DNA from: a virus
IMG/VR virus record: IMGVR_UViG_3300024346_000088
Span: 1-52,910 of that record
Strand: one strand, 5' to 3'
Length of the DNA stretch: 52,910 nt
In this document: positions 13,447 to 49,355 of the stretch, piece after piece
Layout: each line of letters opens with the position of its first letter
How positions within the stretch are numbered: position 1 is the stretch's first letter
Program-made: the position numbers and the translations under genes
Notes under the pieces: model-generated
Databases searched by the model: none
Seen by the model: the letters and a program-made list of their open reading frames with translations, nothing else
What the model was told of the DNA's origin: nothing

Positions 13447-14778
13447 ATGAGTAAATTAGTTACCTTAAATGGTATAAATGATGAAGAACTATTAAATTCT
13501 TTATTTAGTAATGAAATATCTATTATAGAAGATATACAAGGAAGTAAAATTTGGGTTAATTGGAATGGTAAAGAATTCACGATTAAAACAAAGAGTATTT
13601 CAAGTGAGCCAATCAATCTTATAGATTTAGCAATGCAGAATTATTATAATCCTGCAATTAATTATTTTAACTCTTTAGATAGTAGAGTAAAATCATTGTT
13701 AAATAGAAAGTGGTGGTTTTGTTTTGAGTATTTTCCAGACGAGCAACCTGCTAATATAGAGTATAATAGAGTTCCTAAGAATAAATTGGTTTTAACAGCT
13801 ATAAATAAAGCAGGTAAATATGAGTTTTTTTTAGAAGAATTAAATGAATATGCAAGACTTTTTGATGTTGAGATTATACCAGTTGTTTTTCAAGGAAAAC
13901 TAACTGATAAGATGATTGAGGCAATTAAATATTTTTTAAATACTAGTGAAGAAGATTTAGATTATATTTTTGGTGAAAAGTCATTTACATTTTTCTTTTA
14001 TAAGATATTAAATCCACTTTCGGAAGGTTCATTTTTAATGGATGATGATTTTCAAAAGAATATTGAGAAATTGATTATTAGAAATAACTCGGATGATATG
14101 TCATTTGAATTATTAAATCCTTTATATACAAGACTAGGTGAAAATAATGATACTGAGTTTGTTGAGATATACACATTGATATTGATAAACTTTTTAAACT
14201 TCTGTCAATCTGTTGATTTGAAAGATATAAAGTTAAAAGGTTCATCAAAAGATGAAATTTATATCTATTTAATATGTAAACTTTATAATATATATATTAG
14301 TGAAGTAAAACAGGATCTATTAGACTTTGATTTTGTAGTACCAGAATTTTTTGATAAAGATAAATTTAAAATAAATACAGAACTTATTCTAAATAAAGTA
14401 ACTAAAGAATATTTATCAGAGTCTGAAAAACTTGAATATATTTTCAAGGTTATTCTTGGTTCATTTAGTAAGAAAAGAAAAAAAGCAATTGGTATATTCA
14501 CTGATAATACAGTAAAACTATTCAATAAGTTTATTGATGATATTGAAGATCATATTGGAACTTACTTACAAAGAATTAGTGAGATAGAATTGACGAGAGC
14601 GGGTTTATTAGATTTTGGAGACTTCTTTGATATTCAATATGATGTTGATGGAGAGGGAGAAGTTTATCCAGATGTTTACTCTGAATTTGAAAAAGGAGTA
14701 TCAAATGATAAAAAGAAAAAGGGTAAGGGTGGTAAAATGCCAATAGAACCAATAAATACAACAAAAAAACCCATATAA
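13447..14778 (+). CDS. Ligase/nucleotidyltransferase-like protein lacking the catalytic lysine
   Basis: The protein has 443 residues. The first ~180 resemble the adenylation domain of phage RNA ligases: FCFEYFPDEQPANIEY matches motif III (F-GE then I-Y), LVLTAI matches the next strand, and ELNEYARLFDVEIIPVVFQG matches the usual 'del..ya..l....P' segment. The motif-I lysine of KxDG is missing; the candidates are DIQGS (29-33) and NWNG (38-41). The C-terminal ~260 residues are helical, ending in a Lys-rich tail. A structural or binding role is more likely than catalysis. Upstream is ATATATAAC. Confidence 0.55.
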   Translation: MSKLVTLNGINDEELLNSLFSNEISIIEDIQGSKIWVNWNGKEFTIKTKSISSEPINLIDLAMQNYYNPAINYFNSLDSRVKSLLNRKWWFCFEYFPDEQPANIEYNRVPKNKLVLTAINKAGKYEFFLEELNEYARLFDVEIIPVVFQGKLTDKMIEAIKYFLNTSEEDLDYIFGEKSFTFFFYKILNPLSEGSFLMDDDFQKNIEKLIIRNNSDDMSFELLNPLYTRLGENNDTEFVEIYTLILINFLNFCQSVDLKDIKLKGSSKDEIYIYLICKLYNIYISEVKQDLLDFDFVVPEFFDKDKFKINTELILNKVTKEYLSESEKLEYIFKVILGSFSKKRKKAIGIFTDNTVKLFNKFIDDIEDHIGTYLQRISEIELTRAGLLDFGDFFDIQYDVDGEGEVYPDVYSEFEKGVSNDKKKKGKGGKMPIEPINTTKKPI

Positions 14779-14803: not shown

Positions 14804-15025
14804 ATGAAAGAAATAAATTTAAAAACAAAATCGATCAATGTTGAAACAAAGTCAAGACAACTTAAATGTGATTATTCTAGAGAGTTGGTTAAAGATCTTA
14901 ATTCTTTCCATAATATTGATGTAGAGGCAGAATTAGTAAGACTATTAGATAGTGAAATTAAGACATCAATTAGGAAACAAAGTAGAAAGAAAAAAATTGA
15001 AAATTTAACGAAACATACTGACTAA
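14804..15025 (+). CDS. Small basic hypothetical protein (73 aa)
   Basis: A short Lys/Arg-rich protein with predicted helices in the middle (SRELVKDLNSFHNID) and a basic C-terminus (RKQSRKKKIENLTK). It sits 16 bp upstream of the polymerase-like gene and is probably co-transcribed with it. Basic character and position make a nucleic-acid-binding partner possible, but no motif proves this. Confidence 0.55.
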   Translation: MKEINLKTKSINVETKSRQLKCDYSRELVKDLNSFHNIDVEAELVRLLDSEIKTSIRKQSRKKKIENLTKHTD

Positions 15026-15041
15026 TTTTCATATAAAAACT

Positions 15042-16274
15042 ATGTATATTGAAAATGTAATAATCACTAAAGAAAGCTCTGAAAGCGTAGCAAAACGTAT
15101 AGATGATAAGTTATTTTCTCTTCAATTTTTACCAGAATGTTTATATGGAATATCAACTATAAAAACATTAGAATTTAATAACATTAAACTTAAAACAAAC
15201 TATCTAATTGATATAGTACATAATTTAATATTAAAGTATTATTTCAAAAAAGAAAACAGATTCGCTCTAAATGCGACTATTCTAAAGGATAAGTATGGTT
15301 ATCTTTATAACTATTATATCAACTACTTAGTTTCAAATGGTATTTTGATACTTAAAACAAACTATCAAAATGGAGTTACATCAAGAATATATGCCTTAGA
15401 TGAAAATATATTTACTCATAAAATAAAAAGATATAAAAATTTAGATAAAGTACTTCTAAAAAAGTATAAAAATAAATTTGTTGATATGATTCATATCAAT
15501 GATATTTCTAAAGTGAGTTTAATTGAACCACTTATAAAGGAAAAATTAGTTTCTGATCTATTCAGTGTTAAAATTGAATATGATAGAGCTATTTTCTTTC
15601 TAGATTCCTTAAAACATCAAGATATAGACATATATAACAGAAACATATACTCTGTTGATTGTATCAATGATAAACATATCTTTTATCACTTTGATGATTA
15701 TGGGAGAATGCATACAAACTACACTATTCTTAAATCATTTATTAGAAAAAACTGTCTATTGATAGATGGTGAAGAAACTTGTGAGATCGACATACCTAAC
15801 AGCCAGCCATTATTTCTAACTAAAATAATTGACATGCACTCTAATCTAGTAGATCAAAAGGAACTTCTCTTATTTAAAGAACTTACCATATCAGGAACAT
15901 ATTATCAATATGTTATGAATCAATTAGGTGAGAGTAATAAGAAAAAGGTTAAAGAGATGACTTATAAAGTTCTTTTTGGAAGAAATATTGCTACAAGTAA
16001 AGTAGATAAAAACTTTAAAAAACTGTTTCCAACAATTCATCAGTTTATTAAAAATTATAAAAAAGAAAATGGTGATTATAGAGTTCTGGCATATGACTTA
16101 CAAAAAGCAGAATCGGATTTAGTCTTTAATACCGTTATCAAGAAAGTAATGCAATTTTATCCAGAGATAAAACTAATAACAATTCATGATAGTATTGTTA
16201 TACCTAGAAAATATAAGGAAGAAGTGAATCAAATTTTTGAAATAGAGCTCAAAAAAGAGTTTAACATAAACTAA
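15042..16274 (+). CDS. Compact family-A-polymerase-like palm/fingers protein
   Basis: The protein has 410 residues, far shorter than phage DNA polymerases. In order I see YGRMHTN (220-226, like TGRLSSxxPN), EIDIPNSQP (D250, motif A), KKVKEMTYKVLFG (K304, Y308, F312, G313; motif B KxxxFxxxYG), LQKAESD (Q354; like the MQGTAAD helix) and ITIHDSIVIP (H382-D383; motif C). All family-A catalytic positions are kept and the order is right. HDS rather than HDE recalls T7-type RNA polymerases. There is no exonuclease domain; residues 1-200 are unlike a known thumb. The template, product and role cannot be read from sequence. Confidence 0.7.
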   Translation: MYIENVIITKESSESVAKRIDDKLFSLQFLPECLYGISTIKTLEFNNIKLKTNYLIDIVHNLILKYYFKKENRFALNATILKDKYGYLYNYYINYLVSNGILILKTNYQNGVTSRIYALDENIFTHKIKRYKNLDKVLLKKYKNKFVDMIHINDISKVSLIEPLIKEKLVSDLFSVKIEYDRAIFFLDSLKHQDIDIYNRNIYSVDCINDKHIFYHFDDYGRMHTNYTILKSFIRKNCLLIDGEETCEIDIPNSQPLFLTKIIDMHSNLVDQKELLLFKELTISGTYYQYVMNQLGESNKKKVKEMTYKVLFGRNIATSKVDKNFKKLFPTIHQFIKNYKKENGDYRVLAYDLQKAESDLVFNTVIKKVMQFYPEIKLITIHDSIVIPRKYKEEVNQIFEIELKKEFNIN

Positions 16275-16459: not shown

Positions 16460-16999
16460 GTGAATTTAGAAAACCCAAATATATCTTATCTTATATTATC
16501 ATCTGATGGTTTAGATGATATGACATCTGTTCTTTATGCTAAAGATTATCAGATACTTCCCTTACAAACTTATTATAGAGAATCTTTTGATAATTCTGCT
16601 ATGGGTTATAGTGATGTTGATAATGATACACTAAGAAAAGATGTTATTTTTTTATTAAATCACTTTCATCAAGAATCTGCGATTATTAAATATAAAGGAG
16701 AAAAAAAACCAAGAAGAATCTATAGAACTGGTGCTGAAAAGTTATTAGAAATCAATATGTTTAATACTGATTCTGAAAATGTTTCATACTTATATAGAGG
16801 ATTATCGTTTTCTTTTGTGGAATCAAAGAGATATTGGGTTCCTAAATCTAAGGAAGATTTCAAAGTAGGTATGATAGTTGAGTATTTCAATAATAATCAA
16901 TGGTCTGAAAAAGTAGTTGAAAATCCTAATGATGAATGGGAAAGAATGTATAAACTTCTTTTAAAATATGATAAAGTTAGAGTACAATCTATAAATTAA
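16460..16999 (+). CDS. Hypothetical protein (179 aa), GTG start
   Basis: The start is a GTG placed exactly 4 nt after a TAATATATA element. The protein is soluble with mixed strands and helices. The motif FKVGMIVEYFNNNQWSEKVV in the second half resembles a small beta-barrel of the kind seen in nucleic-acid- or protein-binding modules. No catalytic motif is seen. It ends at a bidirectional terminator. Confidence 0.6.
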   Translation: MNLENPNISYLILSSDGLDDMTSVLYAKDYQILPLQTYYRESFDNSAMGYSDVDNDTLRKDVIFLLNHFHQESAIIKYKGEKKPRRIYRTGAEKLLEINMFNTDSENVSYLYRGLSFSFVESKRYWVPKSKEDFKVGMIVEYFNNNQWSEKVVENPNDEWERMYKLLLKYDKVRVQSIN

Positions 17000-43873: not shown

Positions 43874-45580
43874 ATGTCACACATTAGAATAGATAATCAA
43901 AAAGCCATGAAAAAATGGTCTCCAGTGTTGGAAAACATGGGAATTACAGGTGATAGAGTAGAATGGATGTCAGAATATGCTGAATTTCACTCAATCAATG
44001 AGAATGCGTATGTAAACGCATCAAACGTAGCAGGTATGGGTAATGTCCTTTCTGCACAACCACAAGCTTATGCAGGACAAACAATCGGTGGTTCTTTGGC
44101 TGCAGGAACAATTGGTTCAGGTGATGTTGGTCAAAACTTGTTACCAGTTGCAATGAAAATTGCAGGTCAAACAATCGGTCTTGACTTAGTTGCTGTTAAA
44201 CCAACTCCAGGTCCGAAAATCGACTTACTTTATATTGACTTTCAATATGATGATACTCGTTTAGGTGCTGCTGATGAGAAACCACAAGTTTTCAAAGCTA
44301 CAGCAGACCAATTATCTGCAGTACAAATTGCTCTAAGAGCTCAAATGACAACTTCTGGTATCGTTGAAACACAAGGTGGTTTACAAGGTCCTAGATTATA
44401 TGTTGTTGGTATCAATGCTAACTCAACTTTAACTACAAATGAACCAGCTGGAAAAGCTAATCTTGTTGAATTCTTAGGATTCTCTCGTATCGATGGTTTC
44501 CCAATATTCAAAGCTTACAGACAAGCTAATAGTGCAAATGGTTATGCTGCTGGTGGTTCTGCTGCTGCAACTTGGGATTTTGATACTACAAGAAATACAT
44601 TTGGACCAACTCAAGCAATGACTACTGCAATTGGATCATTAGCAGGTGTTACTGTATCTAACGTTTCAATCTCATTAGTATCTGCATTAGAAGATCACAT
44701 TCCTGGTTTCTCTGCTAACTGGTACGGACCTTCAACTCAAACTGCTGGTGCTTACCCAATGGACAGACAGACAGATGATGATTCTTACTCAGGAGTTATT
44801 GGACCAAAAATCTCTTCTAAAACAGTTGCTGTTGGTACTATTGAAGTATCTTCTGCACTTAGAAGAACTGAGATTGAAGACATCAAAGCTAACACAGGTA
44901 TGGATATCGTTCAAAAAATGGAATCAATCCTTGTTAATGAATTGTCTCAAACAATCTCTAAACAAATTGTTAATAAAATCTTCGAAATGGGAGATTTGAA
45001 TAGAACTAATGCACCTTTAGCAGGAAGTACTTACTCTAATGCTATCACTAATCAAACTTTGTTTGACTTAGATACTAAATATGCAGGAGCTTCAAATGGT
45101 CCTGGTGGTGAAACTACTCACGCTGTACAAAGAAAATTGATCACGAAAATTGCTCATGCTTCTAACTACATCGCAACAGAAGGACGTGTTGGGCCAGCTC
45201 AATACTTAATCACAAATGGAGGTTTAGCAGCAGCTTTACAAGATATCGCTGGATACACAATCAATCCATTGAAATCTAAAATGAACTCTCAAGGTCAATT
45301 GTACCCAGTAGGTTCAATCGGAGACATCTCTATCTATGTTGATCCATACATGAGATATAACGATAACAGAATCGTTTTAGGAAGAAAAAATAATCCTGAT
45401 CAACCAGGTATTATTTTCGTACCTTACTTAATGGCTCAGTCAATTAGCATCATCTCTGAGGCTACATTCGCACCAAGAATGTTACTTAGATCAAGATATG
45501 CAGTAACTGAAGTTGGATGGTACCCACAAAAACAGTTCATGACTATCAAAGTTTCTGATACTCTAGGATTACTTAACTAA
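43874..45580 (+). CDS. 23: Major capsid protein, gp23-like
   Basis: The protein has 568 residues (T4 gp23 is 521). WSPVLENMGITGDRVEWMSEYAEFHSINENAYV shows the propeptide with a prohead-protease site after SINE (residue 43). GPRLYVVGINANST, GPKISSKTVAVGTIEVSSALRRTEIEDIKANTGMDIV and IYVDPYMRYNDNRIVLGRK match the HK97-like gp23 fold order. It forms the hexamers of the capsid and, with gp24-type subunits, the shell. It has a long A-rich leader with GGATATATATAG upstream and a strong terminator after it. Confidence 0.93.
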   Translation: MSHIRIDNQKAMKKWSPVLENMGITGDRVEWMSEYAEFHSINENAYVNASNVAGMGNVLSAQPQAYAGQTIGGSLAAGTIGSGDVGQNLLPVAMKIAGQTIGLDLVAVKPTPGPKIDLLYIDFQYDDTRLGAADEKPQVFKATADQLSAVQIALRAQMTTSGIVETQGGLQGPRLYVVGINANSTLTTNEPAGKANLVEFLGFSRIDGFPIFKAYRQANSANGYAAGGSAAATWDFDTTRNTFGPTQAMTTAIGSLAGVTVSNVSISLVSALEDHIPGFSANWYGPSTQTAGAYPMDRQTDDDSYSGVIGPKISSKTVAVGTIEVSSALRRTEIEDIKANTGMDIVQKMESILVNELSQTISKQIVNKIFEMGDLNRTNAPLAGSTYSNAITNQTLFDLDTKYAGASNGPGGETTHAVQRKLITKIAHASNYIATEGRVGPAQYLITNGGLAAALQDIAGYTINPLKSKMNSQGQLYPVGSIGDISIYVDPYMRYNDNRIVLGRKNNPDQPGIIFVPYLMAQSISIISEATFAPRMLLRSRYAVTEVGWYPQKQFMTIKVSDTLGLLN

Positions 45581-46078: not shown

Positions 46079-47455
46079 ATGGCAAATGATTATAAAATGA
46101 AATATGAAGATGAAATAAAGATCGCATTTTCTGCTAGGTTAGTAAAACTTCTAACTACAATGGAAGATGATCATGATGATTATATTGCATATGAACTTAA
46201 CTGGATGGCAGATCCTAGGTCTAAATATGCCAATGATATGAATATATCAAGATTGGATATCTCTGATTCAGATTATTTCTTTGATGCTATAATAGGTGGA
46301 AGAAGACAATATATCAAAATTGGAACATTTTTAAGAAGTTATTTCCCTGGCGTTTATGACGAAGAAAGTATTAGAAAATTCTCTACTACTATTGTAAATC
46401 TTAAAAAGGGAGTAAAAGTTGCAGTACAACCAGTTGGTACACCAATTGAACATAAGCCATTTGTTTATAATCCTAAAGATGTTCGTTCAACATTCTTATC
46501 ATTAGTAACAAAAACTTATCCAATGGGTCATGAAACTGAGGTTTTAGAGTTTTTACCAGACTTAGAATTAGATAAATTTGGGAATTATTATAAAGTAATT
46601 GCCGGAGATGATACTACAATGTTTACATCTCACTTAGATACTGCAGATAGAGCTCAATTACCTACTAAACTTCTATCAAAAATAGAAGATGGTGATGAGT
46701 ATATTTATACTGATGGTACATCCATATTAGGTGCTGATGATAAAGCAGGAGTTGCAGTAATGTTATATATGATGGAAAATAAAATACCAGGTATTTATTA
46801 CTTCTTTATCGGAGAAGAAAGAGGTGGTATTGGTTCAAGAGATTTGGCAAGTGAATATAATTCATTTGAGTTTCTAAAAAATGTTAAGAAGTGTGTTTCT
46901 TTTGATAGAAGAAAAACTGGTTCAGTTATTACTTCTCAATATGGTAGAGTTTGTTGTTCAAACGAATTTGCTACAGCACTTTGTAAAGAATATAACAAAA
47001 GTGGATTAAACTTATCTACTGATCCAACAGGAGTATTTACCGATTCTGCATCATTTATAGATGATATATCAGAATGTACTAACGTATCTGTTGGATATAA
47101 TAACGAGCATACATTTAGAGAGATTCAAAATATGACTTATTTAGAGAAATTAGCAAAAGCTTCTTTAAAAGTAAATTGGTCACAATTACCTTCAGTAAGA
47201 AAAGTAGGTATAAATGAAGAATTATTAAGAAGACATAAAACTTTGATTGATACTGTTAAAAAATCTATATTTGGGTTAGATGTTAAAGTAGTTGGTGTAC
47301 AAGATAAAATATTTATTAAAATAGATTTAGATCTTGCTGATGTTAAAACTATTTTTGATACATTATCACAAGTACAAGGTTTATTATATAAACATAGAAC
47401 CGCAGATCCTTATGTTGTTTTTGACGAAACAACCATCAAAATAGAATTAAAATAA
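46079..47455 (+). CDS. M20/M28-type metallopeptidase-like protein, paralogue 1
   Basis: The protein has 458 residues. SHLDT (H185, D187), LGADDKAG (D220) and FIGEERGG (E246, E247) give the di-zinc site of M20/M28/M42 aminopeptidase-like enzymes. FTDSASF and NNEHTF, farther on, supply the last ligands. An extra ~105-residue N-terminal part is not in its paralogue at 48078. The catalytic Glu is kept, so it could be an active peptidase or amidase. The stop and the next start are one base apart, so the genes are coupled. Confidence 0.75.
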   Translation: MANDYKMKYEDEIKIAFSARLVKLLTTMEDDHDDYIAYELNWMADPRSKYANDMNISRLDISDSDYFFDAIIGGRRQYIKIGTFLRSYFPGVYDEESIRKFSTTIVNLKKGVKVAVQPVGTPIEHKPFVYNPKDVRSTFLSLVTKTYPMGHETEVLEFLPDLELDKFGNYYKVIAGDDTTMFTSHLDTADRAQLPTKLLSKIEDGDEYIYTDGTSILGADDKAGVAVMLYMMENKIPGIYYFFIGEERGGIGSRDLASEYNSFEFLKNVKKCVSFDRRKTGSVITSQYGRVCCSNEFATALCKEYNKSGLNLSTDPTGVFTDSASFIDDISECTNVSVGYNNEHTFREIQNMTYLEKLAKASLKVNWSQLPSVRKVGINEELLRRHKTLIDTVKKSIFGLDVKVVGVQDKIFIKIDLDLADVKTIFDTLSQVQGLLYKHRTADPYVVFDETTIKIELK

Positions 47456-48077: not shown

Positions 48078-49355
48078 ATGGCAAAAAATGAAAGTATAAA
48101 TCCTTTAGATATAAAGGATACTTTTTTGAAACTAACTGAATATACAATTCCTTATGGTGATGAAACTAAATTGGAAAAATATCTACCAAAAGGATATAAA
48201 AAAGATTCTATTGGTAACTATTATATTCAAGTAGGTAATTCAGAAACATTGTTCACAACACACTTAGATACTTATTGTACTAAATATGAAAAGGTAAATC
48301 ACGTTATTGAAGGTGATATTATTAAAACCGATGAAACAACCATATTAGGTGGTGATAATAAATTAGGAATGTGTATTCTATTATACATGATTTCTAAAGG
48401 AATACCTGGAACTTATTACTTCTTCTTGGGAGAAGAACCAATTTTAAGTGGTGGTTTATGGGGATCACAAAATGCTTTAAAAGCAAATCCAGAATTCTTC
48501 AAAAAATTTAAAAGAGCAGTTGCATTTGATAGAAAACAAACAGGTTCTGTTGTTCTAAGACAGAAAGGTAGATTTTGTTGTTCTATTGATTTTGCAGATG
48601 CTTTATCAGATGAACTAACTAATCTAGGAGTTGAGTCTAAACCAGATCCAAACGCTTATTATACAGATACTGCTACTTTCTTAGACATTATTCCAGAATG
48701 TACTAACATTAGTGCTGGCGGATGGAATGAACACTATAAAACAGAGTATGTAGATTTATCCTACACTAAAAAAGTTGCAGAAGCTGCTTGTAAAATTGAT
48801 TGGGAAAACTTACCAACTGAAAGAAAAGTAACTTATTTTGAACCAAAATATAAAATTGAACCAAGACATCGTTTCTCTAATAAGAGTGTCGTAAAAGAAG
48901 TTAAATTTATTTTAAATAAATATGACTTATTACACACAAATACATTAGAGTATGATACTTATAACACTGATACTCTTGTATTTAATACTTGGTTTGAAGA
49001 TATTGGTATTAAAGTAACCATTTTAGATGATATTTTAGTTCAAATCGAAGGTCAAAAAGATGTTAAATTTGATTTCAAAGATGTTAAAAAATTAAATACA
49101 TATTTAGGAAATCTATTTGGTATTGATATTAGTCCAGATGATTATAAGATGATGATCTTTAATGACGACTCGGTGAGCGTATTAGGGATGCGTTTTAAGA
49201 GCTTTGAAGAGTATGTTAAATACTTTGATAGTATAAACACGGATGATACGTCATATGTCATTAAAAAAGGTGGTGAACAATATAAAGAGTATTATGGTGA
49301 TGTGATACCAAAAGAACTAGTTATTAAGTGGTTTACTGATAATGTTCTTGAATAA
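48078..49355 (+). CDS. M20/M28-type metallopeptidase-like protein, paralogue 2
   Basis: The protein has 425 residues. THLDT (H62, D64), LGGDNKLG (D93) and FLGEEPIL (E119, E120) match the di-zinc ligands of its paralogue at 46079, as do FDRKQTGSVV and RFCCSIDFADALSDEL further on. The C-terminal ~150 residues are a beta-rich domain. Duplicated peptidase genes in one operon suggest a shared substrate, perhaps a host peptide or a cell-wall fragment; this is inference. A terminator follows. Confidence 0.75.
   Translation: MAKNESINPLDIKDTFLKLTEYTIPYGDETKLEKYLPKGYKKDSIGNYYIQVGNSETLFTTHLDTYCTKYEKVNHVIEGDIIKTDETTILGGDNKLGMCILLYMISKGIPGTYYFFLGEEPILSGGLWGSQNALKANPEFFKKFKRAVAFDRKQTGSVVLRQKGRFCCSIDFADALSDELTNLGVESKPDPNAYYTDTATFLDIIPECTNISAGGWNEHYKTEYVDLSYTKKVAEAACKIDWENLPTERKVTYFEPKYKIEPRHRFSNKSVVKEVKFILNKYDLLHTNTLEYDTYNTDTLVFNTWFEDIGIKVTILDDILVQIEGQKDVKFDFKDVKKLNTYLGNLFGIDISPDDYKMMIFNDDSVSVLGMRFKSFEEYVKYFDSINTDDTSYVIKKGGEQYKEYYGDVIPKELVIKWFTDNVLE

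Follow-up and report, generated by a model that had tools for sequence, protein, structure and literature searches.

We confirm that the open reading frame 15042–16274 of IMG/VR record IMGVR_UViG_3300024346_000088 (52,910 bases, considered at full length and referred to here as the window) encodes an intact family-A palm and fingers, and suggest that its product is probably a minimal family-A DNA polymerase that lacks an exonuclease and acts as an accessory enzyme, priming or filling short DNA stretches. The gene is surrounded by capsid, portal and tail-like genes, and the family that it represents is real and under selection (that is, purifying selection, with dN/dS of 0.04–0.08 against close relatives). 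Polymerases of this kind are already known (TV-Pol in 2008, divPolA2 in 2024 and one UniProt member named DNA polymerase I), and a literature search found no paper describing the present family. The features that appear to be new are a motif A that reads NSQP throughout the family and places Gln at the steric gate, the domain at the N-terminus, the retention of the gene in the largest phages alongside a replication set, and the conservation of its neighbours. The largest known phages combine a T4-like replication set with a strongly conserved small polymerase missed by the standard family databases searched.

Active site and domain layout

A preliminary description, made from the letters of the window alone, had given the length and position of the protein and quoted a series of family-A palm motifs, and translation of the open reading frame reproduces all of these exactly. 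The motifs are real: R222, D250, I251, N253, S254, Q255, P256 and L259, together with Y288, K304, Q354, E357, H382 and D383, are invariant in 62 aligned homologues (Table 1), and these include the metal-binding aspartates of motifs A and C (D250 and D383; 62/62). The phage sequences also satisfy the motif B pattern (R)xxxKxxxxxxxYG (as K/R300 xxx K304 ... F312-G313). At the position of E710 of E. coli DNA polymerase I (PolI), Gln occurs in 62/62 sequences, the F762 position is Tyr (Y308) in phages, and the Y766 position is Phe (F312) in all 51 phage-type sequences; in bacterial relatives the third residue of the HDS triplet can be S, Q, A or G. In one Flavobacteriaceae relative (locus L070, 7245–8477), motif C reads FDA, not HDS, and a 5'-3' exonuclease gene follows.

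When the family profile built from the 62 sequences was aligned by hhalign with a broad profile of PolA (E. coli Klenow together with T7-type and various phage PolAs), all motifs fell in register (Prob 95.7, E 9.3e-9; unrelated control proteins, Prob 0.1–0.2). This settled an assignment that a thin PolA profile had left open (motifs in register, E 0.024, not significant). Pfam, PHROGs and NCBIfam did not recognize the polymerase. The Pfam model DNA_pol_A gave no match to it above the cut-off, the same model being detected in 10 control genomes, and direct sequence searches of PDB and Pfam returned chance matches, bar a weak in-register match to the PolA 7r0k (E 0.23).

Table 1. Positions in the window of the polymerase gene, its parts and its neighbours
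Feature	Position	Strand	Support or remarks
443-aa upstream neighbour, T4 RNA ligase 2 fold	13447..14778	+	Foldseek E 5e-6, prob 1.00; model pLDDT 70
73-aa mini protein, matches residues 248-301 of T4 gp23 (major capsid protein)	14804..15025	+	
Family-A polymerase gene, 410 aa	15042..16274	+	Translation, family alignment, AlphaFold, Foldseek, hhalign
Winged-helix-like N-terminal domain (putative), residues 52-119	15195..15398	+	DSSP order, weak fold matches
Helical stretch, probably in place of reduced thumb, residues 136-209	15447..15668	+	AlphaFold helices
Palm and fingers, residues 214-406	15681..16259	+	hhalign to PolA and divPolA2
R222, hairpin arginine, TGR-like motif	15705..15707	+	62/62 homologues
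Motif A, D250-IPNSQ-P256	15789..15809	+	D250 = D705, Q255 = steric-gate E710 of E. coli PolI
Motif B (O-helix), K300-G313	15939..15980	+	K300/K304 = R754/K758, Y308 = F762, F312 = Y766
Q354..E357	16101..16112	+	Aligned with Q849 helix (MQGTAAD)
Motif C, H382-D383-S384	16185..16193	+	Aligned with H881-D882-E883
Small ORF between polymerase and 179-aa gene, ~52 codons	16291-16449		
179-aa downstream neighbour, most constant companion of the polymerase	16460..16999	+	46/47 non-redundant loci with enough flank
ORFs with MK(Y/H)LKxFExF-like start	285, 862, 13120, 25989, 27019, 27421, 28813, 29354, 45614		

Structure prediction, which the preliminary description had proposed as a check, returned a palm fold. 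In the AlphaFold model (pLDDT 91.7), D250 directly follows strand 244–249 and H382-D383 lie in the turn of a hairpin (379–381/384–388), an arrangement that, as modelled, is the palm pattern. Foldseek against PDB placed apicoplast PolA first (prob 1.00) and mitochondrial RNA polymerase (POLRMT) next; TM-scores were low (about 0.3–0.4), as expected for a protein that lacks the thumb and exonuclease and carries an additional domain. The N-terminal 200 residues gave no match to an exonuclease domain and are unlike known thumbs, both as first described. According to secondary structure in the model (DSSP order H52–69, E74–77, H78–85, H89–98, E102–106, E114–119) and weak fold matches (Foldseek, winged-helix regulators, E 0.5–1.2), residues 52–119 look like a winged helix; Pfam HTH matches to this domain were weak and its matches to PDB sequences were at chance level only. 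Four modelled helices (136–151, 163–173, 180–190 and 195–209) then occupy what would be the place of the thumb.

The preliminary description had offered four functions and chosen none. Primase-polymerase and small repair polymerase remain, terminal transferase has no specific support, and RNA polymerase is disfavoured because PolA is closer by profile and by fold and because the HDS triplet varies in bacterial relatives. A single-subunit RNA polymerase or RNA-primer maker that prefers rNTPs would fit the replacement of E710 in every homologue and of Y766 in every phage-type sequence, the second place of POLRMT among the Foldseek matches, and the likeness of HDS to T7 RNA polymerase. However, T7 RNA polymerase has Gly, not Gln, at the E710 position, and no T7-like domain for promoter recognition was seen, so that we regard this reading, with PolA nearer on both measures, as improbable. 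A T7-type RNA polymerase profile did not match the family, and a known PolA/T7-RNAP control pair was likewise unmatched. Given that PolA is closer than RNA polymerase, the product is likely to be DNA rather than RNA.

Distribution and accompanying replication genes

The relatives that tblastn found in INPHARED all belong to huge phages that are uncultured (634,780, 642,428, 735,411 (two records), 636,363 and 595,163 bp). In size, the four complete family-bearing genomes of 634–735 kb match the largest four complete genomes reported by Al-Shayeb et al. 2020 ("Mahaphage"), a study that assigned its largest genomes to the Mahaphage clade and predicted Bacteroidetes hosts (PMC7162821). IMG/VR contributed 141 confirmed relatives (80 of which were kept) and GTDB genomes 17 relative loci, in Bacteroidota, Planctomycetota and Verrucomicrobiota; two Hymenobacter plasmids also bear polymerase relatives. 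UniProt A0A8D9FR19, from an uncultured marine phage, belongs to the same family (44% identity, TM 0.90–0.92 over 402 columns) and is called 'Putative DNA polymerase I' by annotation only. In a palm-based tree, one clade (support 100/98) unites the sequences of the four Mahaphage genomes with those of the IMG/VR contigs, and the copy of the 595-kb phage falls among bacterial sequences in a poorly resolved part. The polymerase of a 179-kb contig is identical to that of the window.

All four complete Mahaphage genomes encode a family-B polymerase (PolB), as do 9/10 further records (the 179-kb contig among them). A DnaB-type helicase occurs in 5/5 cases (the four Mahaphages included), and a T4-gp61-type primase (that is, zinc motif plus Toprim) in all four 634–735 kb genomes; the 595-kb phage has PolC and PolA besides the family polymerase. 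Because the Mahaphages encode this PolB, helicase and primase as well, the family polymerase is accessory, as it is in every setting that could be checked. A role as main replicase is ruled out by PolB in the same genomes, and a role as plasmid replicase by the normal Rep gene that both Hymenobacter plasmids possess. The idea of a sole primase, which followed the failure of the DNAG_N model to detect a primase in these phages, was dropped once all four Mahaphages proved to encode the T4-gp61-type primase.

Two further observations concern the polymerases of these phages. PolB is apparently split in two genes between motifs A and B, about 100 kb or more apart (in LR745206, LR756502, LR756504 and IMG/VR contigs). 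In the 595-kb phage (LR756511; locus L052, 7734–10180), the TV-Pol-like gene overlaps by 4 bases the gene for a mini PolA of 428 aa (E 1e-19 against Pfam DNA_pol_A), that is, two small family-A polymerases stand in tandem.

Known relatives and proposed function

The closest described relative is divPolA2, known from barbaviruses and from ICP1-like and other Vibrio phages; Yutin et al. (2024, PMC11348598) proposed that it acts in repair or as an RNA polymerase. Common to both are a length of about 430 aa, a family-A palm that comes with neither exonuclease nor standard thumb, an unrelated N-terminal domain and occurrence besides a regular DNA polymerase. The palms are homologous (hhalign Prob 97.9, E 4.8e-13), although the match spans the palm only and the N-terminal domain is not common. 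In divPolA2, motif A reads D-[YF]-K-A-F-E or D-Y-S-x-L-[WH] (DIxNSQP here), motif C of the aligned member reads FDE (HDS here), and GDPY precedes the fingers (GxxY here); the phages differ as well, those with divPolA2 being phages of Vibrio, Rheinheimera and Aeromonas. A scan of IMG/VR for divPolA2 found nothing. E. coli PolI and T7 DNA polymerase have palm and fingers motifs in register with the family, which lacks their exonuclease domains and standard thumb and has Gln for the steric-gate Glu and HDS for HDE.

TV-Pols, predicted to be primase-polymerases (Iyer, Abhiman and Aravind 2008, PMC2579912), share with the family a length of 400–600 aa, a minimal family-A core, two palm aspartates and an extra N-terminal domain (PMC2579912). 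Their hairpin arginine and fingers RxxxK are present here (R222, 62/62; K/R300 xxx K304), and the bacterial relatives in Bacteroidota, Planctomycetota and Verrucomicrobiota match their setting (that is, an N-terminal domain plus a resolvase or integrase). Unlike TV-Pols, the family has an invariant Q in motif A and no adjoining D5-type helicase in the loci examined; no conserved equivalent of their conserved fingers Asp was seen, the invariant residue nearby being Y288 (GxxY). A profile comparison with MAP_030 of phage Ma-LMM01, which we take to be a TV-Pol and used as a guessed reference, gave no match.

Among TV-Pols, CCPol alone has been tested biochemically. This enzyme of SCCmec, together with its partner MP, primes DNA (PMC7581432, PMC10061031); MP is an OB-fold protein without which it does not prime (PMC10061031); it is close to PolI and retains E710 and F762, PolI's residues against ribonucleotides (PMC7581432). 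Like the family, it is a family-A polymerase that lacks an exonuclease, is encoded on mobile DNA and has a small partner gene adjacent, whereas the family has Q255 and Y308 at the E710 and F762 positions, no helicase next door, and a winged-helix-like N-terminal domain instead. Given that the family differs from CCPol at two ribonucleotide-rejecting residues, priming and sugar choice are directly testable in one small protein that has its N-terminal domain fused to it, and the family would also help to establish how small a working family-A polymerase can be.

In the scheme that we propose, the N-terminal winged-helix-like domain would bind DNA, the thumb would be reduced, and the intact palm and fingers would join nucleotides on a DNA template by the two-metal mechanism through D250 and D383, as membership of family A suggests; catalytic activity is thus a prediction from conserved residues. 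The changes at the E710, F762 and Y766 positions (to Q255, Y308 and F312) lead us to predict altered sugar selection as well; Tyr at the F762 position usually admits ddNTPs. The enzyme may act beside the PolB, helicase and T4-type primase of the phage, making or filling short DNA stretches, and the N-terminal domain (or the 179-aa neighbour) might play the part that MP plays for CCPol, gripping single-stranded template.

The likeliest single role, in our judgement, may be priming or re-priming, slightly ahead of gap-filling, and we hold this view with a little less than even confidence, given that priming has been predicted for TV-Pols and demonstrated for CCPol–MP. Against it, an OB-fold partner like the MP that CCPol requires was not identified at the polymerase loci, a D5-type helicase was not seen beside the gene, and the phages already have a primase, so that a second is not required. 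A bolder version, to which we give rather little weight, is a one-chain primase-polymerase with its own template-gripping winged helix and a remodelled sugar gate (Q255/F312) that would make de novo starts, perhaps with mixed rNTPs and dNTPs; if true, it would be the second primase of the largest known phages.

Neighbouring genes

The model of the 443-aa upstream protein resembles other RNA ligases in addition to T4 RNA ligase 2. Its motif-I lysine position is Asp29 in 17/17 sequences (by-eye alignment), the site reading ED(V/I)QGS in most members, and given this replacement the protein is probably unable to seal nicks (that is, probably a pseudo-ligase). The gene adjoins the polymerase in 39/49 non-redundant loci and occurs in all four Mahaphage genomes, away from the polymerase in two. 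Between the two genes stands the gp23 segment (Pfam Gp23, E 4e-12; hhalign, E 1.7e-8), which is present in 19/51 non-redundant loci; the full-length capsid gene lies at 43874–45580. The 179-aa protein had no match in Pfam, PHROG or PDB, and neither T4 late nor Bacteroidetes promoter-type motifs were found upstream of the polymerase operon. Neither a helicase nor a recombinase gene was observed beside the polymerase in phage loci. Bacterial loci have resolvase or integrase genes (L056, L058, L062 and L065) or ArdC (L055 and L057) beside the relative, and in one case a Sak4-type ATPase near it (L059).

These surroundings bear on two alternatives. A short-patch repair polymerase, which would fill gaps from nucleases or recombination without starting chains, is a possibility that we judge appreciable but would not expect to prevail: it is a role proposed for divPolA2 by Yutin et al. 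(PMC11348598), and the exonuclease gene after the L070 relative, the ATPase near L059 and the RNA-ligase fold of the upstream neighbour are in keeping with it, although that neighbour, having no motif-I lysine, probably seals no nicks. A palm protein without catalytic activity, retained to regulate by binding DNA or as part of the virion, would suit the company of a ligase-fold protein that lacks its lysine and of a fragment of a capsid protein, portal and capsid genes being found in this region too; we consider it very improbable given that all catalytic residues are invariant in phages and bacteria and that selection is strong (dN/dS 0.04–0.08). We therefore retain an active accessory polymerase as the preferred reading.

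Other features of the region were noted in passing. In T4, rnlB adjoins gene 24, a gp23 paralogue. Two paralogous peptidase-like genes lie near the capsid gene of the window (46079–47455 and 48078–49355, with GADDKAG and GGDNKLG motifs). An MK(Y/H)LKxFExF-like N-terminal peptide begins 9/53 window ORFs (Table 1), against 0.15 expected from shuffled N-termini, and resembles the capsid-targeting sequences of T4 internal head proteins.
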